43,214 bases of DNA from NCBI GenBank assembly GCA_003454835.1, contig DMTA01000193.1, positions 1-43,214 of the forward strand, written 5' to 3'. This stretch comes from Achromobacter sp. Its GTDB lineage: Bacteria; Pseudomonadota; Gammaproteobacteria; Burkholderiales; Burkholderiaceae_B. Position 1 is the first letter of the stretch, and each line of letters opens with the position of its first letter. This document shows, piece after piece, positions 8,895 through 29,962 of this stretch. The notes below the pieces were generated by a model that ran no database searches, was not told the DNA's origin, and saw only the letters and a program-made list of their open reading frames with translations. The position numbers were made by a program, and so were the translations under genes.

Positions 8895-8935
8895 TTGACG
8901 CTTATCAATTACCGAGTACTCGGTGGATTTATGCT
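8895..8935 (+). promoter_or_regulatory. FNR/ANR-type box and -10 of the first universal stress gene
   Basis: TTGACgcttATCAA (8895-8908) matches the FNR consensus TTGAT-N4-ATCAA at 9 of 10 positions. TATGCT (8930-8935) is a -10-like hexamer exactly 21 nt further on, placing the box near -41.5 (class II activation). The start of transcription would be about 8942, 50 nt before the ATG. Confidence 0.8.
8911..8924. promoter_or_regulatory. Perfect 14-bp palindrome between FNR box and -10
   Basis: ACCGAGTACTCGGT is a perfect dyad lying 2 bp after the FNR-type box and 5 bp before the -10 hexamer. A protein bound here would block or modulate this promoter. The binder is unknown; the island's NarL-type regulator is a candidate. 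Confidence 0.5.
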
Positions 8936-8991
8936 GGCCTATCTTCGCTGTTCAGCGTGTGGGTCCACGCCCACATTACGGGGGAAAGCCC

Positions 8992-9441
8992 ATGTACTCA
9001 CACATAATTGTCGCCGTTGACAGCAGCCACGCTTCGAATCGCGCATTGGATGAAGCAATAAAGATTGCAAAGGCATTCAAGGCAACGTTGCGCATTATTC
9101 ATTTTCTGGATGATCAATCAATCTCACTCACCGCCAATCCCTATGCGGGGTATTACATGGGAGAACTCATCGAGACACTGCGACGAGGTGGCCAGGAGAT
9201 CCTGAACCAGGCGCGAGAGCGCGCGGCATCGGCGGAAGTGCCGGCTGAAACAATCCTTGCTGACGATCTGGGACTGCCGGTGCAAGAGCGGATTATTGAA
9301 GCGGCGCAAGAATGGCCGGCGGACTTGATCGTGATGGGTACACATGGGCGGCGGGGTGTCCAGCGCGCGATGATCGGCAGTAGCGCTGAAGGCGTTACAA
9401 GACTGTCTCCTGTTCCGGTCTTGCTGGTCCGGGCGGCGTGA
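8992..9441 (+). CDS. Universal stress protein (UspA family, ATP-binding type)
   Basis: 149 aa from ATG 8992 (MYSHIIVAVDSSHASNRAL), preceded by GGGGGAAAG; an upstream GTG in frame at 8923 would overlap the promoter elements. Single Usp domain with the nucleotide-binding signature G-2x-G-9x-G-S in MGTHGRRGVQRAMIGSSAEG and the usual C-terminal VPVLLVRAA. Usp proteins of this kind are cytoplasmic dimers linked to survival during growth arrest and oxygen limitation. It has its own FNR-type promoter and faces a second usp gene across a shared terminator. Confidence 0.92.
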   Translation: MYSHIIVAVDSSHASNRALDEAIKIAKAFKATLRIIHFLDDQSISLTANPYAGYYMGELIETLRRGGQEILNQARERAASAEVPAETILADDLGLPVQERIIEAAQEWPADLIVMGTHGRRGVQRAMIGSSAEGVTRLSPVPVLLVRAA

Positions 9442-9445
9442 GGGC

Positions 9446-9487
9446 ACGCGCGGGCGTGAGGTCTGGAGGGTGATGCCCGCGCGTTTT
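9446..9487 (+). terminator. Rho-independent terminator between two convergent usp genes
   Basis: ACGCGCGGGC (9446-9455) and GCCCGCGCGT (9475-9484) form a perfect 10-bp stem with a 19-nt loop, ending in TTTT. It fills the space between the convergent usp stops at 9441 and 9494. Confidence 0.7.
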
Positions 9488-9493
9488 AGAGGC

Positions 9494-9952
9494 CTATGCA
9501 TCGCCCGCAGGAGCCCGCACGAGCAGCACAGGCACGGTAGCGCCGCGCATGATGCCCTCGGCGCTGCTTCCAAGAACCAGTCGGCTCGGCCCTCGGCGTC
9601 CATGCGTTCCGATAACGATCAGGTCTGCCTTCCATGACAGGGATTCGTCCAGTACTCGCTGTTTGACGGTCCTGTCGAGATTCTCGTGGAGCACGGTGTC
9701 TGCTTCCACTCCCGCCGCCTTGACTTGCGCCAATGCGTGTTCGAGTACCTCTGCACCGTTCCGTCTGACCAAGTCCAGCAGTTGACCTGCGTGATAGCTG
9801 TAAGCATCGGCGGTAAACGCGAACGAGAGTTCATCGACGACATGAATCAGGCGCAGGCGGCCGTGCGTAGTCTGAGCGATCCGGATCGCTTCCCTCAAGC
9901 CCGACTCGGATGTCGGGCTCCCGTCTATAGGAACGAGAATTTTCTGATACAT
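9494..9952 (-). CDS. Universal stress protein (paralogue of the one at 24043)
   Basis: 152 aa from ATG 9952 (MYQKILVPIDGSPTSESGL); a longer frame upstream lacks Usp sequence and covers the FNR-type boxes. The ATP-binding signature is IGTHGRRGPSRLVLGSSAEG. It is closely similar along its whole length to the Usp at 24043-24501: both share MYQ(K/R)ILVPIDGS, LRLIHV(V/I)DELSFA, ENLD(R/K)TV, SWKADLIVIGTHGRRG and VPVLLVRAP. This points to a duplication within the island. It is monocistronic, with an FNR-type promoter at 9987-10027. Confidence 0.93.
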   Translation of the reverse strand: MYQKILVPIDGSPTSESGLREAIRIAQTTHGRLRLIHVVDELSFAFTADAYSYHAGQLLDLVRRNGAEVLEHALAQVKAAGVEADTVLHENLDRTVKQRVLDESLSWKADLIVIGTHGRRGPSRLVLGSSAEGIMRGATVPVLLVRAPAGDA

Positions 9953-9986
9953 GGTGCAACTCCGCGAAGTGTTGGGGTTGACGCTC

Positions 9987-10027
9987 AGTATCGGCGGCCT
10001 CGCGGGCGAAACATTGATTGTTGTCAT
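9987..10027 (-). promoter_or_regulatory. FNR-type box and -10 of the leftward usp gene
   Basis: Read leftward, ATGACaacaATCAA (10027-10014) is followed after exactly 21 nt by GATACT (9992-9987). The proximal half ATCAA is perfect. The same GATACT hexamer at the same distance occurs at the paralogous usp gene (24501). Confidence 0.7.
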
Positions 10028-10092
10028 GAATTTCGCCGGAAGACGGCTCGTGCTGGCGATGGCGGCTGACTGAAATTCGACCCCACATCCGG

Positions 10093-10133: not shown

Positions 10134-10184
10134 GCCCAGAGGCCTGGCCCAAAACACGGGAAATTGGAAACTCGGGAGATCATC

Positions 10185-10832
10185 ATGAGCGATACGGAAC
10201 TGCGGGATAGAGTGCTGAAAGCGCTGGCGTTCGAGCCCAGTGTCGAAGATGAGCATATAGGCGTGGTGGCGGAAGGCGGCGTGGTGACCTTGACAGGACA
10301 TGTCAGCACATTTGCGCAGAAGCTGGCCGCCGAAGACGTCGTTCAGCGGGTCAGGGGAGTTCGCGGAATCGCGCAAGAGATAGAGGTGCGGAGGGCCGCT
10401 GACAAACAACTCGCGGACGATCAGATTGCCGCGCGGGCGCTCAATATTATTGCCTGGGATTCGACGATACCTGACCGCAAGGTGCAGGTGACCGTGAACA
10501 AGGGGTGGGTGACATTGAACGGTACGGTTGAGTGGTTTTTTCAACGGCAGGCAGCCGAGCATGCTGTCCACAAGCTCTCAGGCGTGACCGGCATATCAAA
10601 CTTGATTGAAGTGATTCCTGTGGTGCAAGCGGGCGACATCAAGCGCAAGATCGAAGAAGCGCTGCTGCGCAGCGCGCTGGTCGAAGCACAGCGTGTGGAG
10701 GTCAGCGTGCAGGATCATAAGGTCGTGTTGAGCGGGCGGGTTAATAGCTGGGTTGAACGTGGCGCCGCGGAGAGAGCTGCCTGGGCTGTTCCAGGGGTTG
10801 TCGACGTGCAGGACAAATTGGCCGTTGGCTGA
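10185..10832 (+). CDS. Triple BON-domain protein (OsmY-like, no signal peptide)
   Basis: 215 aa, ATG 10185 after CGGGAG. It has three consecutive BON domains (about residues 4-70, 77-144 and 147-214), each with the alpha/beta pattern ending in V.L.G.V (VVTLTGHVSTFAQK; WVTLNGTVEWFFQRQAAE; KVVLSGRVNSWVERGAAE). BON domains bind phospholipid or other surfaces and are common in osmotic and stress proteins. Unlike OsmY this protein has no export signal, so it should stay in the cytoplasm, perhaps on the inner membrane face. An FNR-type promoter precedes it. A broken copy of its 5' end lies at 17367. Confidence 0.9.
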   Translation: MSDTELRDRVLKALAFEPSVEDEHIGVVAEGGVVTLTGHVSTFAQKLAAEDVVQRVRGVRGIAQEIEVRRAADKQLADDQIAARALNIIAWDSTIPDRKVQVTVNKGWVTLNGTVEWFFQRQAAEHAVHKLSGVTGISNLIEVIPVVQAGDIKRKIEEALLRSALVEAQRVEVSVQDHKVVLSGRVNSWVERGAAERAAWAVPGVVDVQDKLAVG

Positions 10833-10871: not shown

Positions 10872-11606
10872 TCAGCCGCTGCTGATCTTGCGCAGGGCGT
10901 CGATGTTGCGGATTTGCAATTGCCTTCTGTGCACGCGAACCAGGGCTGCATCCTGCAATCGGGCGAGAACGCGACACACGGTCTCTACCTTCATGCCCAG
11001 ATGACTGGCAATATCCTGGCGTGTCATCTTGAGGATGAATTCGCGGGGAGAGTATCCGTTGGCAGTCATTCTCTCGGAGATTCTTATCAGAAAGTGCGCG
11101 ACCCGTTCCTCGGTGGTCATGCATCCCAGGGCCATTAGCAAGTCACGGCTCTCATTGATGTCGTGGGAAATCAGCCGATTAAACTGCTGGGCGGCGATGA
11201 AGTCCTGCCGGCAGTTCCTCATCAGGTCGCAGAAGGGCAGGATGCATACGAGGGAATCCTCGAGGGCGATCGCATCGCTGGTGTGAGTGCCAGTCTCAAT
11301 CGCATCTAGCCCGAGTACTGCGCCCGCAACGGGAAAGGCGGTGATCTGTTCAAGGCCGGCAGGATTAGTCGCTCGGATCTTTACCGAGCCGGATCGCAAC
11401 AGGTACAGGTTATGCAAAGCGTCGCCCGCGCGATAAATGGCGTCGCCTTGCCGGACGAGTCGACGGGCGCGGGGCATGCCCGCCTGGGCCGGTTCGGCGT
11501 CAACGCGAGCATGGCAGATGCGGTCCAGGGCACAGGCTTCGCATTCGCCCATCGGCTCTGCGCGTAACGGCAGATGGGCTCCGCAAGACGACGAGAGGGT
11601 TTCCAT
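10872..11606 (-). CDS. FNR-type [4Fe-4S] oxygen-responsive regulator (Crp/Fnr family)
   Basis: 244 aa from ATG 11606 (GTGAGG upstream); the longer frame back to 11804 would run through the promoter. The oxygen-sensing cysteines match E. coli FNR: Cys22-x2-Cys25-x5-Cys31 (ECEACALDRIC) and Cys121 in DSLVCILPF (E. coli C122). A cyclic-nucleotide-type beta-roll spans about residues 45-135, with a dimer helix after it. The HTH is at about 193-217 (MTRQDIASHLGMKVETVCRV). The recognition helix reads V-E-T-V-C-R, so Glu and Arg of the FNR E--SR motif are kept but Ser212 is Cys211. It is the likely activator of the FNR-type promoters in this island. A housekeeping FNR probably also exists elsewhere. 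Confidence 0.93.
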   Translation of the reverse strand: METLSSSCGAHLPLRAEPMGECEACALDRICHARVDAEPAQAGMPRARRLVRQGDAIYRAGDALHNLYLLRSGSVKIRATNPAGLEQITAFPVAGAVLGLDAIETGTHTSDAIALEDSLVCILPFCDLMRNCRQDFIAAQQFNRLISHDINESRDLLMALGCMTTEERVAHFLIRISERMTANGYSPREFILKMTRQDIASHLGMKVETVCRVLARLQDAALVRVHRRQLQIRNIDALRKISSG

Positions 11607-11742
11607 GGCGCACCTCACTGGTTCGGACTGCCGAATCTGCATGGGTCTGGCGGTGCAGGCTCCATCAGAGACGCGGGCCCAGTATGCTTGGCCGGGCGGC
11701 GGCGCGCTATCAGCGTACCTCGCCAGATTGGCGGGGCATTTG

Positions 11743-11767
11743 CCTACCGCTGTAGGAAATTTCCTAC
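11743..11767. promoter_or_regulatory. Palindromic operator upstream of the fnr-like gene
   Basis: GTAGGAAATTTCCTAC (11752-11767) is a perfect 16-bp palindrome. An overlapping dyad, CCTAC-CGCT-GTAGG, spans 11743-11756. Read leftward it gives heptads TAGGAAA and TTTCCTA, then TAGGCAA six bases later. Paired heptads of this form are typical of NarL/FixJ-family sites (BvgA heptads are close to TTTCCTA). It lies between the response-regulator stop and the fnr-like start. Binding by that regulator is inferred. Confidence 0.6.
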
Positions 11768-11800
11768 CCCGGGTGGAACGCCGGCTTGTGCGTCGACAGA

Positions 11801-12454
11801 TCAAACTTCCGGCGTATCCTGGTCGTCAATCAATCGGTGCCGGATTGCATAACGCGCCAGATCGGTCTGGTTGCGCAACTGCATTTTGACCAGGATGCGG
11901 CACTTGTAGGTGCTGACGGTTTTGACGCTCAGAAAGAGCAGCCGGGCGATGTCCGAGTTGCTCAGGCCCGAGGCAAGGTATCGGAATACGGACAATTCGC
12001 GATCGGACAGCAACAGATGGGGGAGGGTGTCGGTATCGGCTTGCCGTTCGAAAGCGATGCTTTCCGCCAAGGACTGGCTCAGGTACCTGCCGCCGGCGGC
12101 GACCTTGCGAACCGCGACTACCAGCTCCTCTGCGGCGCTGTCCTTGGTCAGATATCCGGCTGCCCCCGCCTTGATCGCGCGTACGGCGTATTGCTGCTCT
12201 CCATGCATGGTCAGCACCAGAATCGGAGTTTTCGGGTATTCATGCCGGATCTGGCGGATCAGATCCACGCCGTCGCGGCCGGGCATGGACATGTCCAGCA
12301 CCAGCAGGTCCCACGGGCGCTGGCCGAGGAGTTTCAACGCTTCGAGACCGTTGCCGGCCTCGCCTTCCACCGAGATGCCGCCTGCATGTTCCAGCAAGCG
12401 CCGCAGGCCTGCGCGCAGCAGCGTGTGGTCATCGGCCAGCATGACGGAGATCAT
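11801..12454 (-). CDS. NarL/FixJ-family response regulator
   Basis: 217 aa from ATG 12454, whose ATGA overlaps the kinase stop; GGGAGG lies 4 nt upstream. Receiver domain 1-120: acidic pair DD (8-9), phosphoacceptor Asp54 in LLVLDMSMPG, conserved Thr/Ser in LVLTMHGE, Lys in GYLTKDS. LuxR-type HTH about 150-212 (LSDRELSVFRYLASGLSNSD, then KTVSTYKCRILVKM). It is translationally coupled to the PAS histidine kinase and sits just upstream of the fnr-like gene, whose leader contains a heptad palindrome. It may therefore set the level of the oxygen regulator (inferred). Confidence 0.93.
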   Translation of the reverse strand: MISVMLADDHTLLRAGLRRLLEHAGGISVEGEAGNGLEALKLLGQRPWDLLVLDMSMPGRDGVDLIRQIRHEYPKTPILVLTMHGEQQYAVRAIKAGAAGYLTKDSAAEELVVAVRKVAAGGRYLSQSLAESIAFERQADTDTLPHLLLSDRELSVFRYLASGLSNSDIARLLFLSVKTVSTYKCRILVKMQLRNQTDLARYAIRHRLIDDQDTPEV

Positions 12455-13539
12455 GCTGCCTCCCAATGGGAATCCGGCGTGTGGGCTGGCACGCGCGCAT
12501 GTAGACGGAATCCGGCCATTTTCTGTGTATGTATCGTGACCTCGCCGTTCAGCAGGCGGACCCGTTCCCGTATGCCTTGCAGACCCAGCGACAAGGGTAG
12601 TTTTTTGGCCAGGGTTTCAGGCGCGGTGCCTATGCCGTTATCTTGAACGGTCAATTCGCATGTCGATCCGGTGCAGCAGAGTCGCACCTCGACCTTGCTG
12701 GCCTGCGCATGCTTGGCAATGTTGGTAAGCGCTTCCTGGACGACGCGAAACAGCGTTGTCGCCACCGGTTTACCAGGTTCCTCTGGTCCGATGTCGATTT
12801 TTGCCTCCACGTCGATGCCGTAGCGGGAAACGAAATCCGCCACCAGCCATTCGACCGCGGCGGCGAGTCCAAGGTCGTCCAGCATGACGGGCCGCAGGTC
12901 AGAGGCGATGCGCCGCAATGAAGCGAATGTCTTCTTTATCAGCCGCCGCATGGCACGGACGTGAGCGCGCATGGCAGTGTCGTCAGGCGCGAAACCCGCT
13001 TCCATCTGGGACAGTTCCATGGTCAGCGCGGTCAGTGTCTGACCCAGATCATCGTGCAACTCCCGGGCAATATGCTTTTTCTCTTGCTCCCGGACATGCA
13101 GCAGTGCGTTTGAAAGACGAGTAAGTTCGTCACGGGAGGCGCGCAGCGCTTGGTCGACCCGCTGCCGCTCGGTGATGTCCCGCAGGAAGATGGACAGGTA
13201 CACGCCCGCCTCCGAGTGCGTTTGAGAAATGGAGGCTTCCATGGGAAATTCTTCGCCGTTGGCGCGCAGGCCCCAGAGCGGTGCGCCCAAACCCATCTGG
13301 CGTTCGGAAATGCCGGTCTGCTTGAACCGGTCGACATGTCTGGAATGGGCGGCGCGAAACCGGGCGGGAATGAGGATGTCGAGGTTAGCGCCGATGGTCT
13401 CGTCCGCGCGGCAAAGAAATACACGCTCGGCCGCCGGATTGAACATCACGATGCGCAGGCGCTCGTCTATCGTGATGATCGGCTCGGTGGCGGATTGGAT
13501 GATGTCCAGCAGCGGCGGCGCGTTAAGCGATTGCTTCAT
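12451..13539 (-). CDS. Soluble PAS-domain sensor histidine kinase (NarX/DegS-type HisKA_3)
   Basis: 362 aa from ATG 13539; a GTG at 13611 would add 24 residues, and neither start has a clear ribosome site. PAS domain about 8-125 (LLDIIQSATEPIITIDERLR... RANGEEFPMEASIS... FLRDITERQ). A coiled linker follows, then HisKA_3 with phosphoacceptor His162 in ARELHDDLGQT. The HATPase has ALTNIAKHA and DNGIG. No membrane segment, so it senses a cytoplasmic signal. His65 and Arg71 in PARFRAAHSRHVDRF align with the haem-ligand His200 and Arg206 of FixL. The FixL distal Arg220 is not obviously kept, and similar motifs occur in non-haem PAS kinases, so haem binding is only possible. Confidence 0.92.
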   Translation of the reverse strand: MKQSLNAPPLLDIIQSATEPIITIDERLRIVMFNPAAERVFLCRADETIGANLDILIPARFRAAHSRHVDRFKQTGISERQMGLGAPLWGLRANGEEFPMEASISQTHSEAGVYLSIFLRDITERQRVDQALRASRDELTRLSNALLHVREQEKKHIARELHDDLGQTLTALTMELSQMEAGFAPDDTAMRAHVRAMRRLIKKTFASLRRIASDLRPVMLDDLGLAAAVEWLVADFVSRYGIDVEAKIDIGPEEPGKPVATTLFRVVQEALTNIAKHAQASKVEVRLCCTGSTCELTVQDNGIGTAPETLAKKLPLSLGLQGIRERVRLLNGEVTIHTQKMAGFRLHARVPAHTPDSHWEAA

Positions 13540-13663: not shown

Positions 13664-14182
13664 TCAATCGACGGCAGGCAGTACCGGGTCGTCCCATCCG
13701 GCAGGCGCCGCCGCGCGTGTCTGCTCGCGGAAGCGGCAAAGGGACGCATCGCATTCCTCGGCCAGCACGTCGTATTGTTTCAGGAGCAGGATCGAACGCG
13801 GCTTGGAACCGACCAGGGTGGCAATATCGTCCACCGCGCGAAAACCGCCGATGCCGGACATGACGCAAATGACGGAGTAGGCCTTGATGAGGCGTCCCTG
13901 CATTTTCAGGAATGCGCGCATGGGCGCGGCCAAGGATCGAAGCCAGACCGGCGCGATCAGAATGACATGGTCGAAGCCATCGACGGGCGGACCGTCATAG
14001 CGCACATCCGGGCAGCGCTTGAGCAGGCTGTCCACAATGCAGCGCCAATCACCGCTCAGTCCAAATCTTGGGACGGCGTCACGAATTTCATATGCTGGCC
14101 AGTTGCTCAGGGATGACAGGCGCTCGGCAGTGGCGCGGGCGGTGCCTGTGCGCGAATAATAAAAAATTCCTATGCGCTCCAT
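13664..14182 (-). CDS. Flavodoxin-fold protein
   Basis: 172 aa, ATG 14182 with GGGAGAGG upstream. The N-terminal strand-loop IGIFYYSRTGTARATAE has the flavodoxin FMN-phosphate loop pattern (S-x-T-G-x-x-x). VDGFDHVILIAPVWL with the later CVMSGIGGF corresponds to the flavin-ring loops. Probably a cytoplasmic electron carrier or flavin reductase used at low potential. Partner unknown. It follows the CBS gene by 19 bp and is probably cotranscribed with it; the kinase/regulator pair continues on the same strand after 124 bp. Confidence 0.8.
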   Translation of the reverse strand: MERIGIFYYSRTGTARATAERLSSLSNWPAYEIRDAVPRFGLSGDWRCIVDSLLKRCPDVRYDGPPVDGFDHVILIAPVWLRSLAAPMRAFLKMQGRLIKAYSVICVMSGIGGFRAVDDIATLVGSKPRSILLLKQYDVLAEECDASLCRFREQTRAAAPAGWDDPVLPAVD

Positions 14183-14201: not shown

Positions 14202-14657
14202 TCAATTTTCCTGGTCCAGCAGCGCGCGCAGGATGTCCCTGCGGCTTACCACGCCAACGAGTTTTCCGCCGCGGGTGACCGGGACGCGCTTGATGCCGCG
14301 CTTGAGGATAAGGTCGGCGATCTGCGCCAGTTCCGTGTCTTCTTCCACCGTAATGACGGGGCTGCTCATGACGGATGCGGCTGTCTGCTCCCCCAGCTGA
14401 AGGCTGTGCAGGAACTCCAGGTTCAAGGCTTCGCCTTCGGCGAGCAGCGCCAGCCAATGGTCCATCTTTTTTTGATGTGTGCTGTCCTGGCGCCTGACCA
14501 GATCGCCCTCGCTGACAAGTCCGATCAGTTTTCCATCATCGCCCATCACCATCACCGCGCTGATGTTCTTGTCCAACATCGCCCGCATGATCTGGGAAAC
14601 TGGCGTTCTCGCCGTGACGCAGTATGGGTCTGGGGTCATAAGATTTCGCGCGCGCAT
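14202..14657 (-). CDS. CBS-domain-pair protein
   Basis: 151 aa from ATG 14657, with CTGGAGAG 6 nt before it (MRARNLMTPDPYCVTARTPV); an in-frame ATG at 14711 lacks a good ribosome site. Two CBS motifs: residues ~7-62 (ISAVMVMGDDGKLIGLVSEG, DLVRR) and ~93-148 (ASVMSSPVITVEEDTEL, RVPVTRGGKLVGVVSRRDIL). CBS pairs bind adenine nucleotides and usually report energy state. Stand-alone CBS proteins of this size are found in hypoxia regulons (Hrp1/Rv2626c in the DosR regulon). Probably first gene of CBS-flavodoxin. Confidence 0.88.
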   Translation of the reverse strand: MRARNLMTPDPYCVTARTPVSQIMRAMLDKNISAVMVMGDDGKLIGLVSEGDLVRRQDSTHQKKMDHWLALLAEGEALNLEFLHSLQLGEQTAASVMSSPVITVEEDTELAQIADLILKRGIKRVPVTRGGKLVGVVSRRDILRALLDQEN

Positions 14658-14820
14658 GTCGCTCTCCAGGACGTCAAGGTGCAACTCGTCGGTCGAATCC
14701 GACGTTTCCATGTTGAGCCTGCGGAGCCAAGGCTCGTTGATATTGGTCAATCGAGCGATTTTCGTTCGACGATCCCGTGGCGATTTATGTAAGGACTGAA
14801 TTCTTGTCCCTGATTTCTGC

Positions 14821-16219: not shown

Positions 16220-16251
16220 CGATTGACTCATTTCAGCACAGGAGACTTCCC

Positions 16252-21381: not shown

Positions 21382-21422
21382 AGCGTAGGGCCTCCTGCCC
21401 AGCCCGGCTTGACGAAACTCAA
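21382..21422 (-). promoter_or_regulatory. FNR-type box and -10 of the phasin-phaC unit
   Basis: Read leftward, TTGAGtttcGTCAA (21422-21409) is followed after exactly 21 nt by TACGCT (21387-21382), 64 nt before the phasin ATG. The same TACGCT hexamer occurs at the RNase promoter at 28410. It lies in the 162-bp gap after the magnesium ATPase, which otherwise shows nothing. Confidence 0.65.
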
Positions 21423-21480: not shown

Positions 21481-24027
21481 CTATTTCTGGCGTGCGAACC
21501 GCGCAAGCAGGAACCGGCGTTTGATCTGATGAACGGCTGCGAGGTAGCAGAAGACCAGGGGGGCGAGCATGAGATAGAAGAGAGGCGGCGGGGGGACAAA
21601 GGAAAAAAAGCCGGCCAGCGGCCCCACGGGTAGCCACAGTGCCGCGGCCACGACCAGAAAGCAGGTTGCCGCCAGGGCGCCATTTGGCCGGCTGCGCAGC
21701 GGGTTGTGCCGGGTCCGGATGACGAAAATCACCAGAACCTGCGTGCAAAGCGATTCTACGAACCAGCAGGTCTGAAATTCGGCCTGCGTGGCGTTGAGCA
21801 CATGCAGCAGCAGATAGAAGGTGATGAAGTCAAAAGCGGAGCTCACCGGCCCGATGACGAACATGAATTGGCGTATCAGCCCGATATCCAGGCGGCGCGG
21901 GCAAGAGATGTCCTCCGCGTCCACGTTGTCCAGGGGAATGGGCAATTCCGACAGGTCGTACAGCATATTGTTCAGCAGGATCTGTACGGGAAGCATGGGT
22001 AAAAAGGGGAGGAACAGCGCCGCGCCTGCCATGCTGAACATGTTTCCGAAATTTGAGCTCGTGCCCATCATGATGTACTTGAACACGTTCATGTAGGTGC
22101 GGCGGCCCTCCAAGACGCCGTCATGCACCACTGCAAGGCTGCGCTTGAGTAGGATGACGCGGGCGGCTTCTCGCGCCACGTCTGTCGCCGATTCCACGGA
22201 TATCCCGACGTCCGCGGCGTGAAGGGCGGGGGCGTCATTGATCCCGTCCCCCATGTAGCCGACCGTGTGGCCGAGCTGCTTGCACGCCCGCACCACGCGC
22301 TCCTTCTGCGCCGGCGTCATGCGGCAGAAGAGCGTGGTCTTCTCCACCAGGCCGCGCAGGGTCAAGGCGTCCATGGCGGCAAGTTCCGTCCCGGTCAGGA
22401 CACCCCCAACGGGCAATTGCAGTTGCGTGCACACATGACGGGTCACGACTTCACTGTCGCCTGAAATGACCTTGATCTGCACGCCGCGCGCGCGCAGCGC
22501 CTTCAGCGCGTTTGCGGCGCCGCGCTTTGGCGGATCCGCGAACGCTGCGTAGCCGCGCAGCACCATGTCCGAGGCGTCGTCGGTGTCTACCGAGGTCGAC
22601 GCGGCCGGCATCACTTTTGACGCAATCGCGAGCACGCGGAATCCATCGCTTTCCATGGCTTGCACGGTCTGCCCGGCCGTCTGCCTGACGGCCGCAGTCA
22701 AGGGCGCGGGGGCGGCGCCGTCGCGTGGCGCATACGCCGAACAAATGCGCAGGACGTCCTGCGGCGCGCCCTTGACGATCAGTTGGACGCCGGACGGCCC
22801 TTGCACCAGCGTTCCCGCCCAGCGCCGGTCAAAGTCAAACGGCAACTGAGCAAGCAGGGTCCATGCGTCCAGGGACATGCCGCTGGCGGACAGCACCGCC
22901 TCGTCCAGGGCGTTCTTGGCTCCCGCCAGGTAACGGCTGTTCACGCGCAACAGGGCGGCTGCGCTTGCGCTGGGCCCGCCCTCCACATCCACCGTCCGGT
23001 CCAGGCGTATCCGCGCTTCAGTGAGCGTCCCGGTCTTGTCCGTGCAGAGCACATCCATGGTGCCCAGGTTCTGGATGACCGGAAGCTGCTTGACGATGAC
23101 GTGCTTGCGGGCCAGCCTGATCGCCCCTCTGGCGAGGGTCACCGACACCACCATGGGCAGCAGTTCCGGCGTCAGTCCGACAGCCAGGGCGATTGTGAAA
23201 AGAATGGATTCCAGCCATGGCCGGTGAAACAGAGCGTTGATCAGCAGGACGAACAGGACCAGGAAGACCGTCAGACGCAGGATCAAGTAGCCGAAGCGCT
23301 GTATGTCCAGATCGAACGTCGTCGGCTTTGCGCGACTGGCGATGTCAGCGCCGATTCTGCCTAATTCGCTTTGCGTGCCGGTGAACACCGCGATTGCCGT
23401 CGCGCTGCCGCTGTGGACAGCGGTGCCGGCCAGGACGGCACGCGGTGAATCGATAGCCTGTTCCGCCCAGATATCCGTGACGGCGGCGCTTTTTTCCACG
23501 GGGAAGGATTCGCCAGTGAGCAAGGCCTGATTGACCTGCAGATGGCGGCTGGAAACCAGCCTGGCATCCGCTGCGATGATGTCACCGGCCTCGAGCGCGA
23601 GCAGATCGCCCGGAACGACTGCGGTGGCCGGAATGCGAATGCTGCGGCCGCCCCGCAGGACGGTAGCCTTTTGCGCAACGGATTGCTGAAGCTTCAACTC
23701 TGCCTGGGCGCTGCGCCTTTCTTGGTAGGCCTCGAGCGTGACGCTCACCATCACGATACCCGCGATGATCAGCGCGTTGCCGAGTTCTCCCAGCGACGCC
23801 GACACGGCGCCGGCGAGCAGGAGGATGAGAACTAGCGGGCTGGCGAATCGGCGCAGAACAAATACGGCATCCTCGCGCAGGCGCCCAAGCCGCGGTGCGG
23901 GCGCCGCCAATCCCTGCCGGCGGGATGCCTCCTGGGCGTCAAGGCCCAGGCTGGTGCAACCTAGGCGCGCGTAGAGCGCCTGCGCGTCCTCGTTCCACCA
24001 GGGATAGACGTCAGGCCGCTCATTCAT
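21481..24027 (-). CDS. mgtA: P-type ATPase, magnesium-transporter (IIIB) type
   Basis: 848 aa, inner membrane. TGES actuator loop at 171-174; phosphorylated Asp330 in CTDKTGTLTEA; M4 motif LTPELLP (285-291) followed by MVVSVTLARGA, typical of MgtA/MgtB importers; hinge GDGINDAPALHAADVGIS; C-terminal helices about 640-845. The N-terminal extension is about 50 residues shorter than E. coli MgtA. It starts 15 bp after a usp gene and is probably cotranscribed with it. Maintaining Mg2+ or membrane potential during anoxia is a plausible role; the ion is assigned by family motif only. Confidence 0.9.
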   Translation of the reverse strand: MNERPDVYPWWNEDAQALYARLGCTSLGLDAQEASRRQGLAAPAPRLGRLREDAVFVLRRFASPLVLILLLAGAVSASLGELGNALIIAGIVMVSVTLEAYQERRSAQAELKLQQSVAQKATVLRGGRSIRIPATAVVPGDLLALEAGDIIAADARLVSSRHLQVNQALLTGESFPVEKSAAVTDIWAEQAIDSPRAVLAGTAVHSGSATAIAVFTGTQSELGRIGADIASRAKPTTFDLDIQRFGYLILRLTVFLVLFVLLINALFHRPWLESILFTIALAVGLTPELLPMVVSVTLARGAIRLARKHVIVKQLPVIQNLGTMDVLCTDKTGTLTEARIRLDRTVDVEGGPSASAAALLRVNSRYLAGAKNALDEAVLSASGMSLDAWTLLAQLPFDFDRRWAGTLVQGPSGVQLIVKGAPQDVLRICSAYAPRDGAAPAPLTAAVRQTAGQTVQAMESDGFRVLAIASKVMPAASTSVDTDDASDMVLRGYAAFADPPKRGAANALKALRARGVQIKVISGDSEVVTRHVCTQLQLPVGGVLTGTELAAMDALTLRGLVEKTTLFCRMTPAQKERVVRACKQLGHTVGYMGDGINDAPALHAADVGISVESATDVAREAARVILLKRSLAVVHDGVLEGRRTYMNVFKYIMMGTSSNFGNMFSMAGAALFLPFLPMLPVQILLNNMLYDLSELPIPLDNVDAEDISCPRRLDIGLIRQFMFVIGPVSSAFDFITFYLLLHVLNATQAEFQTCWFVESLCTQVLVIFVIRTRHNPLRSRPNGALAATCFLVVAAALWLPVGPLAGFFSFVPPPPLFYLMLAPLVFCYLAAVHQIKRRFLLARFARQK

Positions 24028-24042: not shown

Positions 24043-24501
24043 TTACGCGGTGCCGTCGGGGGCTCGTACCAGCAGGACGGGAACTGGGGCTCCCCGCAGG
24101 ATCCCTTCCGCGCTGCTGCCCAGCACCATGCGGCTTACGCCTCGACGGCCGTGCGTGCCGATGACTATCAGATCAGCCTTCCAGCTTTCCGCCTCCGCGA
24201 TCACGCGCTGCTGCACGGTCTTGTCAAGGTTTTCATAAAGCACGCCTTCCGCGGTGGTGCCTTGCTCCCGCGCGGCAGCCATGCCTTTTTCAAGGATCTC
24301 GGCGCCGCTTTTTCTGAGAAGATCCAGCAATTCGCCGGCATAGAAACCGTAGGAGTCCACGGCCAAAGCGAACGACAGTTCATCGATCACATGAATCAGG
24401 CGCAGGCTGCCGTGGGTGAGTTTCGCCAAGCGTATCGCTTCGTTCAGGCCCAGGCTCGAGGTGGAGCTGCCGTCGATGGGTACCAATATGCGTTGATACA
24501 T
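24043..24501 (-). CDS. Universal stress protein (paralogue of the one at 9494)
   Basis: 152 aa from ATG 24501 (GGAGAC upstream; MYQRILVPIDGSSTSSLGL). ATP-binding signature IGTHGRRGVSRMVLGSSAEG. Nearly colinear with the Usp at 9494-9952. First gene of usp-mgtA, read from an FNR-type promoter with a perfect TTGAC-N4-GTCAA dyad. Pairing of a usp gene directly upstream of a P-type ATPase occurs twice in the island, which suggests that the stress protein modulates the pump (inferred). Confidence 0.93.
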   Translation of the reverse strand: MYQRILVPIDGSSTSSLGLNEAIRLAKLTHGSLRLIHVIDELSFALAVDSYGFYAGELLDLLRKSGAEILEKGMAAAREQGTTAEGVLYENLDKTVQQRVIAEAESWKADLIVIGTHGRRGVSRMVLGSSAEGILRGAPVPVLLVRAPDGTA

Positions 24502-24528
24502 GACTGTCTCCGGACGGTGGATGCGCAA

Positions 24529-24569
24529 AGTATCAATCTTTCGAAACGGCGGATCTTGACGGGAGTCAA
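24529..24569 (-). promoter_or_regulatory. FNR-type box and -10 of usp-mgtA
   Basis: TTGAC-N4-GTCAA at 24556-24569 is a perfect dyad. Leftward, GATACT (24534-24529) lies exactly 21 nt away. The box begins 1 bp beyond the stop of the preceding L,D-transpeptidase gene, in an intergenic region of only 69 bp. Confidence 0.8.
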
Positions 24570-24570: not shown

Positions 24571-25395
24571 TCAGTTTGCGACAGCGCGCCAGGGCTCTGA
24601 CCAGTCTGGCCGGTCCGCGCGATTGGTGTCGACGATGATCAGGTAGCGTCCGGCGCCAGGGGCCGGGGTTCTGTCGCGAAGCAGTATCCAGGGACGAGAG
24701 ATCAGGTCCGCCGCAAGTTCATAATCGGCGTCCAGCAAGCCGTATCTGTCCAGCAGGCGGTTGAGGGTTGCCGGTATTCGGATGCAGCCTTTGGATTGCG
24801 GCGTGCCCAGCTTGGGTTCGAGCAGGACCGGGTCAGTCGCGTGCATTTGCAGTCGCATCGTGCTGGCGCCACGATTGCCCCATCCCCGGTTCGCCTGCTG
24901 CCAGCCGAAATCATAGATTCGCATGCCTTTTGCGCCGTAGCCGAGTATCCCGTTCGCGTTCTTCGTGCCCTGGGCGCGGAAATCGGGATTTGCCAGGGAG
25001 TGCGCGAACACGCCGGTGGGCGTCTCGAAATGGTCGAACTGCCCGACCTTTCCGGTCGAGACGGGAGAGGCGCCCACATGGATGGGCGGACCGGCGGCCG
25101 GCAACCAATAGAGTAGCGCCGCCTGAACCCGCGGGCTCCGGTCGACGACCAGGACATACTGCGAGCCAAGCAGGCCGATGCCGGCATCGGCCAGGGCCTG
25201 CAGCGCCAGGGCGCCATAGTGCACTCGGTCGCCGGCGGACATCTGAAGCGCGGGCGCGACTTCCAGGCGAAAGGTGCGCGCCATGTCTTCGGGCGTGGGC
25301 TGGGCCGATACCTGGGATGCCGCGGCCGCGCACAGGAGCGTAGCCGCGACGGCGCGCATCGCGCAGGCGGCAAGTCCATATGGGACGCGAATCAT
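24571..25395 (-). CDS. Exported L,D-transpeptidase-fold (YkuD) protein
   Basis: 274 aa from ATG 25395, whose ATGA overlaps the stop of the P-type ATPase upstream. Signal peptide 1-31 (AVAATLLCAAAASQVSAQ). The YkuD catalytic region shows His in LQMHATDPVLLEPKLG and the nucleophile motif SKGCIRIP (S-x-G-C-x-R), so the active cysteine is intact. Members crosslink peptidoglycan by 3-3 bonds or attach proteins to it, in the periplasm. 3-3 crosslinks are known to increase in non-growing cells, fitting a survival island (inferred). Last gene of usp-ATPase-ldt. Confidence 0.85.
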   Translation of the reverse strand: MIRVPYGLAACAMRAVAATLLCAAAASQVSAQPTPEDMARTFRLEVAPALQMSAGDRVHYGALALQALADAGIGLLGSQYVLVVDRSPRVQAALLYWLPAAGPPIHVGASPVSTGKVGQFDHFETPTGVFAHSLANPDFRAQGTKNANGILGYGAKGMRIYDFGWQQANRGWGNRGASTMRLQMHATDPVLLEPKLGTPQSKGCIRIPATLNRLLDRYGLLDADYELAADLISRPWILLRDRTPAPGAGRYLIIVDTNRADRPDWSEPWRAVAN

Positions 25396-27857
25396 CGTGC
25401 GGCCTTGCAGTGCAGCCATTTTGGCGTCCTTAGCGGCTGGCCTGGCGGGCGCAGTCGCCGCGCGACCAGCCAGACCATTACCGCGGCGAGCAGGGCGGCC
25501 GCCCAGCCTTTGATGTCCAGGGGGCCGAAGTCGAACAGGCGGCGCAGCGCTGGCCATTCCAAAGTCAACACAAGCAATGCCAGCGTTGCGGCTATCGCCA
25601 ATCGGGTCGCTCCGTCCCACATGCCGGCATGGCGCTGGTGGGAGGCGCGGTTGTTAATCATCAGGGCCAGATTGCCTAGCACCAAGGCGCAGAAGGCGGT
25701 GGATCGAGCGCTATCCGCAGGCGCTTGCATTTGTTGCAGCCCCCCATAGAGCAGCCCCACCGATGCCAGAAGCGCCAACCCCTGGGCAAAGCCCAGCAGG
25801 AACGTCGTCAATGAAAAGAGCGGCCTCGCCACGGGAAGAGGAGGGCGGCGCATAAGGTCCGGTTCTCCTGCGACGGTCTCGAATGCCAGTCCGCACAGGG
25901 GACCGATCACGATCTCCAGGAATGCCACATGGGCTGGGCGCAGCAGCTCCGGCCAGCCGAACAGGAGGGGCAGAATCACCAGCCCTGCTATCGGGACATG
26001 CGCCGCGACGATGTAGACGATCGCCTTGGACAGGTTGTCGAACAATCGGCGGCTTTGCCGGATCGCGTTCAAGATATCGGAGAAGTCATCGCGGGTCAGG
26101 ATCAGGTCCGCCGCCTCCCGTGCGACATCGGTGCCGCGCCCGCCCATGGCGATGCCGACGTGCGCCGCGCGCAGGGCGGGCGCATCGTTAACGCCGTCCC
26201 CGGTCATTGCGACGATGGCTCCCTGTTGTTTCAGGCGCTCGACCAGTCGCAGCTTCTGCTCAGGCTTCACACGGGCGTAAACGCATACGCGCTTGACCAG
26301 TTCGGACAGGCATTCGTCGCTTTCCCGCTCCAGGACATCGCCTTCGGCCACGAGGTCGGCCGGTATGCCAGCCTGGCGGGCGATGGCCCTGGCGGTGGCC
26401 GGGTGGTCTCCCGTCAGCATCAGCACGCGTATGCCCGCGTCATCGCAGGCGGCGACTGATCCGCTCACGCCTTCCTTGAGCGGGTTTTCCAGACCGACCA
26501 GACCGGCAAACTGCAGAGGGATATTTTCCGGGTTATCGGGTAGCGGCGAATTCGGCCAGCGTGCGCTGGCTGCCGCCAGCACACGAAGGCCTTCCCCGGC
26601 CATGCGGCGGACCTCGGCCTCCAGTTCAGCCTTGCGGTCCGGCGTCAGTTGGCAAAGCTTGAACACGGTTTCCGGCGCGCCCTTGCACGCGATCCGGATG
26701 AGGTTCTCCGGTGCGGCTGTCCAGGCGTGGACGACGGCCAGTCGAGCGACAGAGAACGGATAGGCTTTCGTCAGCTTGAGGGAGCCTGGTGCGGGCGGAC
26801 GGCCCGCCAATTCCGAGGCGAAGCTGCGGAAGGCGTCCTCCATCGCGTCGCCGGAATCGGGCACGCTTGCCAGCGCGAGCGTTTCAGCCAGGTTACAGAC
26901 GTCGGGTACTGGTTTGGCGCCGGTGACGGCCACAAGATCGGAAGTGTCCATGCTGATGGACCCGGTGTACAGTTGGCGCACGGCCATCGTGTTGGTTGTC
27001 ATGGTGCCTGTCTTGTCGGCGCACAACACAGTCGTCTTGCCCAACGTCTCGACCACGCTCAGTTTCCGGACGAGTACGCCGTCGCCCGCGATGCGCTTTG
27101 CTTCCATCGCGGAGAAGATTGTCACGATGACCGGGAAATCCTGCGGAAGCAGACTCATTGCCAGCGCGATGCCTGCCAACAGCCCTTCAAACCATCCTCC
27201 CCGCATGTAGACATACAAGGCCCACGTGGCCAGGGAAAGGATAAAGCCAACCCACATGAACCGCAGGATGAAATGGCGGGTCTGTGATTCCAGGGGGGCG
27301 CGTTCGGGTGTCAGTTGCCGCATGGCCTGACCCAACGCTCCCAATCTGGTGTCGTCACCGACGGCATCCACGCGCATGACGCCGGTTCCCGACAGGACCA
27401 ACGCCCCGCAGAACATTTCGGCGCCGCTTCCGGGCACGCTCTGTATCCGCTTGAATACCGGCTGGAACTCTCCGGTAAGTGCGGACTCGTCGACCAGCAG
27501 ACCTTCGCCGTCGATGAGATGACCATCCGCCGGGACGCGGTTCCCTTCCGCCAGCAGCACAGTGTCGCCGCGCGCAAGGTCCGCCGAGGCCACCCAGCAC
27601 CGCTTGCCGCTGCGCAGTGTGAGGGCGCGGGGCGCCGCCAGGCGTCCTAACGCTTCCAATGCGTGCGACGTACGCAGGGACTGCCCGACAGTCAGCGCGA
27701 AGATGACCAGGACGAAGAGCAGCAGCAAGGCGGCTTCATGCCAGGCTCCCAGAATCGAATAAAGCCCTCCCCCCGCGAGCAGCAGGGCAAACATGGGATC
27801 CTTGATCAGGTCCAGGCTGATCGAGATCAGCGTGCGCTGACGATCCGGCGGGGCCAT
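25392..27857 (-). CDS. Cation-transporting P-type ATPase (type II-like), N-terminally short
   Basis: 821 aa. Phosphorylated Asp281 in CADKTGTMTTN; actuator loop LTGEF (128-132) with Phe where Ser is usual; M4 motif LLPQDFP (236-242) instead of PEGLP/PEEFP; hinge GDGVNDAPALRAAHVGIAMG; C-terminal membrane domain from about 600. The protein begins at MAPPDRQRTL, which corresponds to the end of the usual cation-ATPase N-domain, so about 40-60 residues typical of the family are missing. The 11-bp gap to the usp gene leaves no room for them. The ion is uncertain; Ca2+ or another divalent/monovalent cation is possible. A usp-ATPase pair resembles Rv1996-ctpF in the DosR regulon. Confidence 0.88.
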   Translation of the reverse strand: MAPPDRQRTLISISLDLIKDPMFALLLAGGGLYSILGAWHEAALLLLFVLVIFALTVGQSLRTSHALEALGRLAAPRALTLRSGKRCWVASADLARGDTVLLAEGNRVPADGHLIDGEGLLVDESALTGEFQPVFKRIQSVPGSGAEMFCGALVLSGTGVMRVDAVGDDTRLGALGQAMRQLTPERAPLESQTRHFILRFMWVGFILSLATWALYVYMRGGWFEGLLAGIALAMSLLPQDFPVIVTIFSAMEAKRIAGDGVLVRKLSVVETLGKTTVLCADKTGTMTTNTMAVRQLYTGSISMDTSDLVAVTGAKPVPDVCNLAETLALASVPDSGDAMEDAFRSFASELAGRPPAPGSLKLTKAYPFSVARLAVVHAWTAAPENLIRIACKGAPETVFKLCQLTPDRKAELEAEVRRMAGEGLRVLAAASARWPNSPLPDNPENIPLQFAGLVGLENPLKEGVSGSVAACDDAGIRVLMLTGDHPATARAIARQAGIPADLVAEGDVLERESDECLSELVKRVCVYARVKPEQKLRLVERLKQQGAIVAMTGDGVNDAPALRAAHVGIAMGGRGTDVAREAADLILTRDDFSDILNAIRQSRRLFDNLSKAIVYIVAAHVPIAGLVILPLLFGWPELLRPAHVAFLEIVIGPLCGLAFETVAGEPDLMRRPPLPVARPLFSLTTFLLGFAQGLALLASVGLLYGGLQQMQAPADSARSTAFCALVLGNLALMINNRASHQRHAGMWDGATRLAIAATLALLVLTLEWPALRRLFDFGPLDIKGWAAALLAAVMVWLVARRLRPPGQPLRTPKWLHCKAAR

Positions 27858-27868
27858 GGCTCATCGGC

Positions 27869-28294
27869 CTAGTTGACCAGCACCACCGGGATGTGAACCG
27901 TGTGCAGCACCTTCAAGGTGGTCGAACCCAGTAGCAGGCTGCCGGCGGCGCCCATTCCGCGCGACCCCATGACGATATGGTCGCAACCCTGCTCGGTGGC
28001 ATAGGATTTGATGGTCTCGGCGACGTTGCCGACCCGAGCCGCCTTTTGATAGAGAATTCCTGACTGGTCCAGCAGAACCTCCGATTCCGCCAGGGCCGTC
28101 TTCGATTCGTCGTCGTAGTATTCCTGGATCGCTTCCGGCTGAACGAAGGCCAATACCGTTCCGGAGACTATGGGCATTTGCACGTTGAGCAGGTGTATGG
28201 AGCAAGGGCCGTGTTCGCGGACATGGTCGACCATATAGCGCACGGCGCGCACGGAATTGCCTGATCCGTCCACGGGAATGAGTACGTTTTTCAC
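27869..28294 (-). CDS. Universal stress protein
   Basis: 141 aa from GTG 28294 with GGAGG 5 nt upstream (VKNVLIPVDGSGNSVRAVRY); an ATG-type start further out at 28339 would fall on the transcript start. ATP-binding signature MGSRGMGAAGSLLLGSTTLK. It diverges from the other Usps of the island (no HGRRG). First gene of usp-ATPase-ldt. Controlled by the bidirectional FNR-type box. Confidence 0.92.
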   Translation of the reverse strand: MKNVLIPVDGSGNSVRAVRYMVDHVREHGPCSIHLLNVQMPIVSGTVLAFVQPEAIQEYYDDESKTALAESEVLLDQSGILYQKAARVGNVAETIKSYATEQGCDHIVMGSRGMGAAGSLLLGSTTLKVLHTVHIPVVLVN

Positions 28295-28347
28295 GGGGCC
28301 TCCGATAGAAGTGGATGCCAGGGCCGCCTGACCCTGCACTTATTGCC

Positions 28348-28415
28348 ATCATCGCGCGCGTCCTGCGGTTGAAATTGACTCCGGTCAAGTTGTGCACAAA
28401 TCCCCCCTCTACGCT
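28348..28415. promoter_or_regulatory. Bidirectional FNR-type promoter region
   Basis: One perfect dyad, TTGACtccgGTCAA (28375-28388), has -10-like hexamers exactly 21 nt away on both sides: GATGAT leftward (28353-28348) for usp-ATPase-ldt and TACGCT rightward (28410-28415) for the RNase gene. A single regulator dimer could activate both, each from a -41.5 position. Confidence 0.75.
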
Positions 28416-28567
28416 GAAGGCAAGTCTTGCAGGATGTCCAGACGGATACTCTTACCTCCCGACGGCAGCACAACTGCAGTCGAAGACCTGAAGGAAACAC
28501 TGCGTCTGGTCCTTCTCACCAACGCCATACAGCGAAGATTTCGGAAAATAGACCTGGGAGAGAAGCC

Positions 28568-29962
28568 ATGGAAAGCAAGCTTCGGCTGCAATTCTGGGGC
28601 GCTGCCGGCACTGTCACCGGCTCGCGTCACCTGCTCAGCATGGACGGGCGATCCATCCTTCTGGATTGCGGACTATTCCAGGGCGTCAAGACACTCAGGC
28701 TGCGTAATTGGGCCCCGTTTCCCGTTGCGGCCTCCAGCATCGAGGCCGTGGTGCTGTCGCACGCGCACCTGGATCATTCGGGATACTTGCCGCGGCTGGT
28801 GCGCGAAGGATTCAATGGCCCCATTTATGGTTCTAATGCCACTCTTGACCTATGCCAGCTGCTGCTACTGGACAGTGCCCACCTGCAGGAGGCTGATGCC
28901 GATTATATGAACCGGCATGGTCTGACAAAACATCGGCCGGCGCTGCCGCTCTATACCGTCGCCGACGCGCATCGGGCCATCGCCGCCTTTCGTCCGATCC
29001 CGTTTGACACGATGACCGAACTGGCGCCTGGCCTACGGCTCAGCCTGTCGCGTGCCGGCCATATCCTGGGCGCCTCTGTCGTGGAAATCGCGCACTCCGG
29101 CATGCGACTGGCCTTCTCGGGGGATCTTGGCCGATATGACGATCCGCTGATGCCTGCGCCCGCGCCCGTGAGCGAGGCGGACTATTTGATCGTGGAGTCG
29201 ACCTACGGTAACCGGCGCCACAGCAGGGAAAGCGCGCTCAATGCCTTGGCAGACATCATCGAGCGCACCGTCGCGCGCGGCGGCTCCCTGTTGATTCCGT
29301 CGTTCGCCGTGGGTCGTGCACAGCTCCTCCTGTATCACCTTTGGCGGCTTAAGCAGGCGGGCCGCATCGCCCGCAACCTGCCAATATATCTGGATAGTCC
29401 GATGGCGAGCGAAGCCGTTGAAATCTATCTGCGGCACGACGCTGATCAGCGGCTCGCGCGTCAAGACGCCATCGCTGCCTACAACGTTGCATCTTGCGTC
29501 AGCGACGTTGAACAGTCCAAGGCGCTGGACAGATCGCCCATGCCCAAGATCATCCTGTCGGCGAGCGGCATGGCAACGGGGGGACGGGTTGTCCACCATC
29601 TGAAGCACTATGCTGGCAATCCACGCAATACCATCCTGTTCGCCGGCTTCCAGGCGATGGGCACCCGCGGTGCTGCGATGCTAGACGGCGCTCAGACGAT
29701 AAAGATCCATGGGGAATACGTGCCCGTGCGTGCCGAAGTTAGCAACCTGTCCATGTTGTCCGCACATGCAGATGCCGATGAGATCATGCGTTGGCTGAGT
29801 GGATTTTCCCGCGCGCCGCGAGAGACTTTCATCGTGCATGGGGAACCCGACGCGGCCGACGCCCTGCGTCTGCGCATCAAGGACGAGCTGGGGTGGCTGT
29901 GCCGGGCGGTCGAGCAGGGGGATTCTGTGGGGCTCCCGTCCAGTAGTGGAACGCCTTGGTAA
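28568..29962 (+). CDS. MBL-fold beta-CASP RNA-processing exonuclease
   Basis: 464 aa from ATG 28568 (GGGAGAG upstream; MESKLRLQFWGAAGTVTGSR). Metallo-beta-lactamase motif SHAHLDHSG (H-x-H-x-D-H), later metal ligands AGHILGAS and FSGDLG, the beta-CASP part with ESTYGNRRH, SFAVGRAQ, SASGMATGGRV, and final His motifs LSAHADADE and FIVHGEP. This is the CPSF/Ysh1-like bacterial RNase group: zinc-dependent, cytoplasmic. Divergent from the usp-ATPase unit and likely induced with it, so it may adjust mRNA turnover during arrest (inferred). Confidence 0.93.
   Translation: MESKLRLQFWGAAGTVTGSRHLLSMDGRSILLDCGLFQGVKTLRLRNWAPFPVAASSIEAVVLSHAHLDHSGYLPRLVREGFNGPIYGSNATLDLCQLLLLDSAHLQEADADYMNRHGLTKHRPALPLYTVADAHRAIAAFRPIPFDTMTELAPGLRLSLSRAGHILGASVVEIAHSGMRLAFSGDLGRYDDPLMPAPAPVSEADYLIVESTYGNRRHSRESALNALADIIERTVARGGSLLIPSFAVGRAQLLLYHLWRLKQAGRIARNLPIYLDSPMASEAVEIYLRHDADQRLARQDAIAAYNVASCVSDVEQSKALDRSPMPKIILSASGMATGGRVVHHLKHYAGNPRNTILFAGFQAMGTRGAAMLDGAQTIKIHGEYVPVRAEVSNLSMLSAHADADEIMRWLSGFSRAPRETFIVHGEPDAADALRLRIKDELGWLCRAVEQGDSVGLPSSSGTPW

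Follow-up and report, generated by a model that had tools for sequence, protein, structure and literature searches.

The lxa (low-oxygen-activated) locus of Burkholderia cenocepacia, BCAM0275–BCAM0323, comprises about 50 genes. Its induction at low oxygen and the need for it in anoxic persistence have been published (PMC6127331, PMC9104464; here and below, PMC numbers refer to passages of these papers), its likeness to the DosR (DevR) regulon was in print in 2018 (PMC6127331), and its presence is patchy among strains (PMC4981469, PMC9104464, PMC3759415). We analyzed a window of 43,214 nucleotides, the whole stretch of DNA under study, from Achromobacter sp. (GenBank assembly GCA_003454835.1, contig DMTA01000193.1, C496 in our numbering). 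Positions 8895–29962 of it hold an island of stress genes with an embedded sensor kinase, NarL/LuxR-type response regulator and Fnr-type regulator. The island is of the lxa type and a largely known kind of locus. In the literature searched (titles and abstract openings, the founding paper Sass 2013 not being covered), we found neither an lxa-type island of Achromobacter, nor the operator reported below, nor a description of the control circuit that we predict.

The control of lxa itself has been described in part. In the published tables, the Fnr-type protein BCAM0287 and the regulator BCAM0288 have numbers that fall between those of BCAM0286, an alcohol dehydrogenase, and BCAM0290, a Usp, and three Fnr-type proteins are given as putative transcription factors (PMC4981469). 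The functions of these Fnr-type proteins are called poorly defined (PMC4505428), Bnr1 is said to regulate five lxa Usps (PMC9733578), and the passages of PMC4981469, PMC4505428 and PMC9733578 give no role to the embedded two-component pair. The locus is important for persistence without oxygen, and a conserved single operator is a concrete and cheap handle on who controls lxa-type islands and by what logic.

We compared the window with the locus of B. cenocepacia NCTC13227 (L081). Its open reading frames reproduce, to the second decimal and in gene-number order, the masses of nine lxa proteins given in the published passages (Pta 35.26, PhbB 26.32, BCAM0295 19.82, Usps 30.59, 17.74, 30.52 and 16.14, cytochrome c 12.04 and BON protein 23.52 kDa), and a tenth, nitroreductase-like, agrees within 0.01 (36.08 vs 36.09 kDa). 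The mass scan gave 33 matches in all frames, ten of which were taken as genes by order and family; the Hsp20 frame runs past the end of the locus and so stands outside the mass comparison. Kinase, regulator and Fnr are adjacent in L081, as in the core of the window, with identities of 56% for the regulator, 52% for the kinase, 49% for PhaC, 46% for Hsp20 and 41% for Fnr. The two loci share the Usp cluster, Hsp20, a BON protein, a zinc-type alcohol dehydrogenase, a metallo-beta-lactamase/beta-CASP protein, PhaC, a cation ATPase and the embedded kinase–regulator–Fnr set with the same operator ahead of fnr. They also share an irregular presence among strains: in Achromobacter the kinase was found in 19 of 43 genomes and is absent in 24. 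They differ in size, since 21 genes were assigned in the window, short of the full lxa extent of about 50, and in the CBS and flavodoxin-like genes that lead into the kinase in the window. Queries for six kinds of lxa protein (DUF1488, cytochrome c, nitroreductase, Pta, PhbB and BCAM0295), drawn from L081 or from its relatives on plasmids, matched nothing in the window at a threshold of E 1e-3 (phosphofructokinase was outside this test), and the storage gene shared with L081 is PhaC. The guess of the initial annotation that related clusters might be known in other proteobacteria was therefore right.

We read the window's locus as an lxa-type low-oxygen survival island of Achromobacter run by a cascade from kinase to response regulator to fnr to payload, and put the probability of this reading at about 0.72. 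In this cascade the FixL-type PAS kinase would sense low oxygen or a linked redox cue and would phosphorylate the NarL/GacA-type regulator, which in turn would bind a single conserved palindrome, TGTAGGAA-N4-CCTACA, ahead of fnr and turn fnr on. Fnr, with a putative oxygen-labile 4Fe-4S cluster held by its cysteines, would then bind the TTGAY-N4-RTCAA boxes that stand ahead of Usps, Hsp20, the beta-CASP gene and others. The box ahead of the run of CBS, flavodoxin-like, kinase and regulator genes could add a second oxygen check and positive feedback. Judged from family knowledge, the payload would keep a non-growing cell alive: Usps and Hsp20 would be protective, polyhydroxyalkanoate (PHA) and the alcohol dehydrogenases would absorb or release reducing power, the P-type ATPases would hold ions and the beta-CASP protein would adjust RNA. 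The predicted wiring is FixLJ-FixK-like, not direct control in the DosR style.

The operator emerged when palindromes were enumerated in 105 upstream regions of Achromobacter island genes (top 25 strings). Two families led the list, the Fnr box and GTAGG-N6-CCTAC, the latter without any coding hit; a few other strings had four to six hits. The exact operator occurs once per island in all 13 Achromobacter islands, always in the regulator–fnr spacer and nowhere else there. In the spacer alignment its arms are constant and its centre is variable (the row of L040 was shortened, its regulator end coordinate overlapping the site), and in L049 it stands ahead of a receiver–fnr pair with the regulator gene ending about 9.5 kb away. 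On these grounds we rejected an intrinsic terminator or a chance palindrome. Across the genus, GTAGGAA-N4-CCTAC is present in 19 of 43 genomes, the identical set to the kinase carriers, and absent in the 24 kinase-less genomes; the genus has one additional site, in G019. Its position was read in the regulator–fnr spacer in 13 of the 19; in the other six (G324, G325, G329, G332, G334 and G336) it was taken from the distance to the kinase match, 665–689 nt downstream, with 684 nt in G016. This co-occurrence is partly trivial, because the site belongs to the locus; its rarity elsewhere in the genus is the telling point. As a separate observation, the Achromobacter spacers (11612–11801 in the window) share two elements downstream of the operator, GCYGATAG and a hexamer close to CATACT; both may belong to the fnr promoter.

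A further set comprised 80 named loci, the best of 547 by kinase similarity. They contain 36 exact GTAGG-N6-CCTAC sites, and for 32 of these the next mapped gene is fnr or a receiver–fnr pair; the reversed-arm control gave one site. Moreover, a symmetric variant, TGTCAG-N6-CTGACA, was found nine times in 86 loci and never inside mapped genes, with no site for the scrambled control. Two of the nine were labelled by script as directly ahead of fnr or receiver, six more lie by gene order in divergent fnr/kinase or BON/fnr spacers (L104, L106, L122, L123; L111, L050), and the last, in L096, was not placed relative to fnr. Cupriavidus and Ralstonia account for the eight beside fnr, together with two Burkholderiaceae loci that are unplaced. 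Seven mixed sites combine an arm of one kind with an arm of the other, and four of these stand ahead of fnr. The recognition helix of the regulator reads YKMRL in the eight loci with the variant beside fnr and otherwise, among the sequences printed, in L053 only; this covariation of helix and operator tracks phylogeny and is only suggestive. We hold it slightly better than an even bet that the locus is a Burkholderiales-wide transferable survival module with its own two-tier switch. A dedicated kinase–regulator pair, one operator per genome, only at fnr, Fnr boxes on a freely reshuffled payload, an operator that holds its place ahead of fnr through altered gene orders, and arms that change symmetrically from TGTAGG to TGTCAG with the recognition helix in Cupriavidus/Ralstonia-type loci would together make up such a module. 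A receiver-like protein stands before or beside fnr in many Burkholderiales copies, with a match in 31 of the 80 named loci (for example L051 21854–22285 and L054 21906–22337); none fits into the short regulator–fnr spacers of the 13 Achromobacter islands.

The Fnr boxes were counted over 174 genes of the 13 Achromobacter islands and L081, of which 117 have free upstream sequence, searched up to 250 nt ahead of the gene. An exact TTGAY-N4-RTCAA stands upstream of 67 of the 117, and 124,596 bases of island coding sequence contain no match; 59 other palindromes of equal composition gave no more than 4, and other spacings no more than 2. In the assembly of the window, 4 of 28 exact boxes fall in the island vs 0.13 expected, and the position at which the initial annotation had the island begin, 8895, is the first base of one of them. 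All 13 Achromobacter islands have a box 32–40 nt ahead of the assumed CBS start, a position that suggests Fnr control of the run from CBS to regulator and, possibly, a true CBS start further inside the gene. A Fnr-box-like motif at low-oxygen genes is also part of the B. cenocepacia work (PMC4505428). Three Usp genes beyond the island (G000 contigs C36, C110 and C296) have an exact Fnr box about 150 nt or less from the start of the Usp match.

The gene order CBS–flavodoxin-like–kinase–regulator–Fnr is fixed in all 12 kinase-bearing congeners read, out of 18; in the other six only the kinase and the operator were located. This linkage supports a dedicated low-oxygen stress module with Fnr and a NarL-type pair, as the initial annotation had proposed. 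It had also said that genes scattered in close relatives would speak against the module: the core is linked throughout, whereas the surrounding payload differs between congeners in its genes and their order, and the kinase is missing in many genomes. The island has a G+C content of 61.9%, vs 65.9% and 65.8% in its flanks. In G020 these flanks align 0.9 kb apart instead of 23 kb, in G005 6.4 kb apart, and both genomes carry their own island elsewhere. The closing flanks, the islands located elsewhere and the G+C difference suggest that the island was inserted or relocated; a possible alternative is a chimaeric contig in the draft assembly. A comparison of the island's flanks with those of the islands in the 12 congeners gave no shared stretch of at least 400 nt; for some congeners it covered short flanks only, so that it is a weak test of the number of insertion sites. 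In the plasmid collection the kinase occurs in 29 records, many of them replicons of 1–3.5 Mb. Kinase–regulator–Fnr–Usp clusters lie on two plasmids typed conjugative (P. graminis pPHS1_P and Pandoraea pPV15), one typed mobilizable (C. metallidurans WXY105 p1) and one typed non-mobilizable (P. phytofirmans pOLGA1). Such plasmid-borne copies suggest a module able to move as a whole. The annotation of the pOLGA1 cluster (L054, 1353–15400) also lists an F-type ATP synthase set and arginine deiminase pathway genes, which would suit anoxic energy supply. Among the 55 named loci longer than 20 kb, the genes found within about 10 kb were regulator (53), Usp (51), Fnr (38), alcohol dehydrogenase (22), beta-CASP (15), CBS (13), Hsp20 (13), BON (12), flavodoxin-like (9) and PhaC (7).

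The PAS domain of the sensor has the FixL PAS as its nearest solved structure (E 1.6e-22 in the PDB), and a His that is invariant in 19 of 19 sequences aligns with a FixL His which we take to be the haem ligand. DevS and DosT are matched weakly and in the ATPase domain only. In the PDB sequence ranking of the regulator, three VraR entries and NarL come ahead of DevR, which is fifth (3c3w, E 1.5e-28), while the best NCBIfam match is UvrY/SirA/GacA. The Fnr-type protein has a Crp-type helix-turn-helix and the four putative cluster-binding Cys (24, 27, 33 and 123), invariant in 15 of 15 aligned sequences; it scores 169 bits with the NCBIfam Fnr subfamily vs a cut-off of 228. The system resembles FixL-FixJ-FixK of rhizobia in its PAS kinase, in the NarL/FixJ-class regulator and in the CRP/FNR-type gene that is predicted to be activated and to pass the signal on, as in FixLJ-FixK2 (PMC9104804). 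It differs in that its distal regulator keeps the four Cys of Fnr, its payload is one of stress survival and its response regulator is nearer to VraR, NarL and DevR than to FixJ. BarA-UvrY/GacS-GacA has a similar palindrome, the UvrY site TGTAAG-N6-CTTACA, which lies far upstream of the promoter at the strongest UvrY targets (PMC4682653); here, however, the predicted target is fnr and not small RNA genes, and the family score is under the cut-off.

The initial annotation called the island DosR-like, and the analogy, published for lxa as well (PMC6127331), is sound for the functional classes (Usp, Hsp20, CBS, P-type ATPase and storage polymer) and the NarL family of the regulator. A module in the DosR style, in which the NarL-type regulator directly activates the payload and Fnr is a parallel input, could build on these classes and on the presence of DevR among the regulator's PDB relatives; we consider it unlikely. 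The sensor kinases of the DosR system, DosS and DosT, are GAF-type, whereas the window kinase is PAS-type, and the two systems also differ in predicted wiring and in boxes. The upstream palindromes are led by the Fnr box and the operator, the exact operator stands solely ahead of fnr in all 13 islands, and the island of the window shows no enrichment of the DosR-type core palindrome (8 matches at up to 3 mismatches vs 13.8 in shuffles). No conserved regulator boxes were seen ahead of the payload, where degenerate half-sites could escape the search. Homology to DosR was rejected as the mechanism on the regulator ranking, the PAS sensor and the lack of core-palindrome enrichment; with the Fnr box as the conserved site ahead of the payload, the label is not supported for mechanism or descent. 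It is doubtful, too, that the payload answers to a genome-wide Fnr/Anr encoded elsewhere while the kinase and regulator of the island respond to something else (nitrate, redox or membrane stress), with fnr as one target among several. Such an arrangement would fit the distribution of the Fnr boxes, 24 of whose 28 sites lie beyond the island, including three a short way upstream of other Usp genes. It would also fit the several low-oxygen-induced Fnr paralogues of B. cenocepacia (PMC4505428) and the putative nature of haem binding by the PAS domain. One circuit is favoured instead by the core, in which kinase, regulator and Fnr are linked in all 12 congeners read, and by the operator, which follows shortly after the kinase in all 19 kinase-bearing genomes of the genus. 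If stress genes had simply accumulated by insertion and lacked joint regulation, this would explain the variable payload, the lower G+C and the flanks that close up in G020 and G005, but such a loose assemblage is very improbable beside the conserved Fnr boxes and the fixed regulatory core.

Several points weigh against the cascade from kinase through fnr to payload. Degenerate half-sites, which NarL-type regulators can use, escape a search for palindromes, and direct payload control may thus occur. Of 60 named loci in which fnr or a receiver was hit, 28 lack the exact operator. Degenerate operators (at most 3 mismatches) are hardly commoner in these 28 than in shuffles (15 vs 11.65), and the search for such forms yielded only the symmetric variant. 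Over the order as a whole, the operator string is found in 53 of 300 genomes vs about 95 for the reversed control (hand count), so it is informative only by position. The Met residue occurs with an ordinary operator in L051 and L105, and the variant helix of L053 is accompanied by neither form of the operator. The residue that we take to be the FixL distal Arg is not conserved in Achromobacter, and the UvrY/SirA/GacA score of the regulator, 182 bits, is far under the cut-off of 280. Kinship among the 13 Achromobacter islands, and boxes shared by divergent genes, make the Fnr-box counts non-independent and inflated; even so, the contrast is large.

The assembly is a draft of 4.53 Mb in 585 contigs, 79% complete and probably metagenome-assembled; the kinase is 84% identical to that of Achromobacter denitrificans and 76% to that of A. 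piechaudii, the closest named relatives by kinase sequence, which make Achromobacter the probable genus. The features of the island are compiled below, with gene calls that rest on Pfam/NCBIfam profile scans.

Table. Genes and predicted regulatory sites of the island (window coordinates)
Feature	Position	Strand	Basis
Fnr box TTGACGCTTATCAA upstream of Usp 8992	8895..8908		exact TTGAY-N4-RTCAA
Usp	8992..9441	+	Pfam PF00582, 104 bits
Usp	9494..9955	-	Pfam PF00582, 105 bits
Near-match Fnr box between Usp 9494(-) and BON 10185(+)	10014..10027		one mismatch to TTGAY-N4-RTCAA
BON-domain protein, three BON domains	10185..10832	+	Pfam PF04972, 163 bits
Fnr-type regulator, four conserved Cys	10872..11612	-	Pfam Crp helix-turn-helix and cNMP domains; Cys alignment
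Predicted response-regulator operator GTAGGAAATTTCCTAC, regulator–fnr spacer	11752..11767		only such site found in assembly
NarL/LuxR-type response regulator	11801..12454	-	Pfam Response_reg and GerE
PAS-HisKA_3 sensor kinase	12451..13539	-	Pfam; nearest in PDB FixL PAS
Flavodoxin-fold protein	13664..14182	-	AlphaFold model and Foldseek
Two-CBS-domain protein, leads CBS–flavodoxin-like–kinase–regulator run, start not settled	14202..14711	-	Pfam PF00571, 106 bits
Fnr box between CBS 14202(-) and Hsp20 14914(+)	14737..14750		exact TTGAY-N4-RTCAA
Hsp20	14914..15339	+	Pfam PF00011, 64 bits
Usp, long form	15386..16219	+	Pfam PF00582, 54 bits
Zinc-type alcohol dehydrogenase	16249..17352	+	Pfam PF00107 and PF08240
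Alcohol dehydrogenase	17454..18446	+	Pfam PF08240
SYLF-domain lipoprotein-like	18515..19129	+	NCBIfam NF049970, 86 bits, below 200-bit cut-off
PHA synthase PhaC	19167..20912	-	Pfam PF07167 and PF12551
Phasin-like small protein adjoining phaC	20905..21318	-	position and size only
Near-match Fnr box upstream of phasin-like gene	21409..21422		one mismatch to TTGAY-N4-RTCAA
Mg-type P-type ATPase (MgtA-like)	21481..24027	-	NCBIfam TIGR01524, 765 bits, cut-off 611
Usp	24043..24504	-	Pfam PF00582, 106 bits
Fnr box upstream of Usp 24043(-)	24556..24569		exact TTGAY-N4-RTCAA
YkuD/L,D-transpeptidase-like protein	24571..25395	-	Pfam PF03734, 21.9 bits, below cut-off 23.4
Ca-type P-type ATPase-like	25392..27857	-	Pfam E1-E2 and cation ATPase domains
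Usp	27869..28312	-	Pfam PF00582, 90 bits
Fnr box between Usp 27869(-) and beta-CASP 28565(+)	28375..28388		exact TTGAY-N4-RTCAA
Beta-CASP/RMMBL metallo-hydrolase (RNase-like)	28565..29962	+	Pfam PF10996 and PF07521

The locus is real and non-random. A Usp profile search of the assembly gave 13 hits, counted as 11 genes because two open reading frames have two hits each, and five of the 11 lie inside the 21 kb island; random placement equalled that in 0 of 200,000 trials, so the clustering is not due to chance. These are the five Usp genes named in the initial annotation, whose gene list was borne out nearly throughout by the profile scans. The exceptions are the phasin-like protein, which has no match in the Pfam or NCBIfam scans, and the L,D-transpeptidase, which stays below its cut-off; the list had also overlooked the SYLF-domain protein, and its CBS pair turned out to be one gene with two CBS domains. 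Both P-type ATPases exceed the general NCBIfam cut-off (TIGR01494, 62.3 bits), and only 21481(-) passes as the Mg type. For 25392(-) the best specific model is the Ca-type TIGR01522, below its cut-off, and none passed among the 25 models shown. The flavodoxin-fold protein has no Pfam match, and its assignment is upheld by an AlphaFold model (mean pLDDT 87), for which FMN flavoproteins are the top matches in the PDB (3edo, E 3.4e-9).

Outside the island, positions 36725–36808 (+) of the window match the Rfam family P9, a Pseudomonas small RNA, with 65.8 bits. The match stops two bases short of the listed start of a threonine dehydratase open reading frame at 36811, and, this close, it may serve the gene as a 5' leader element and not be a free small RNA.

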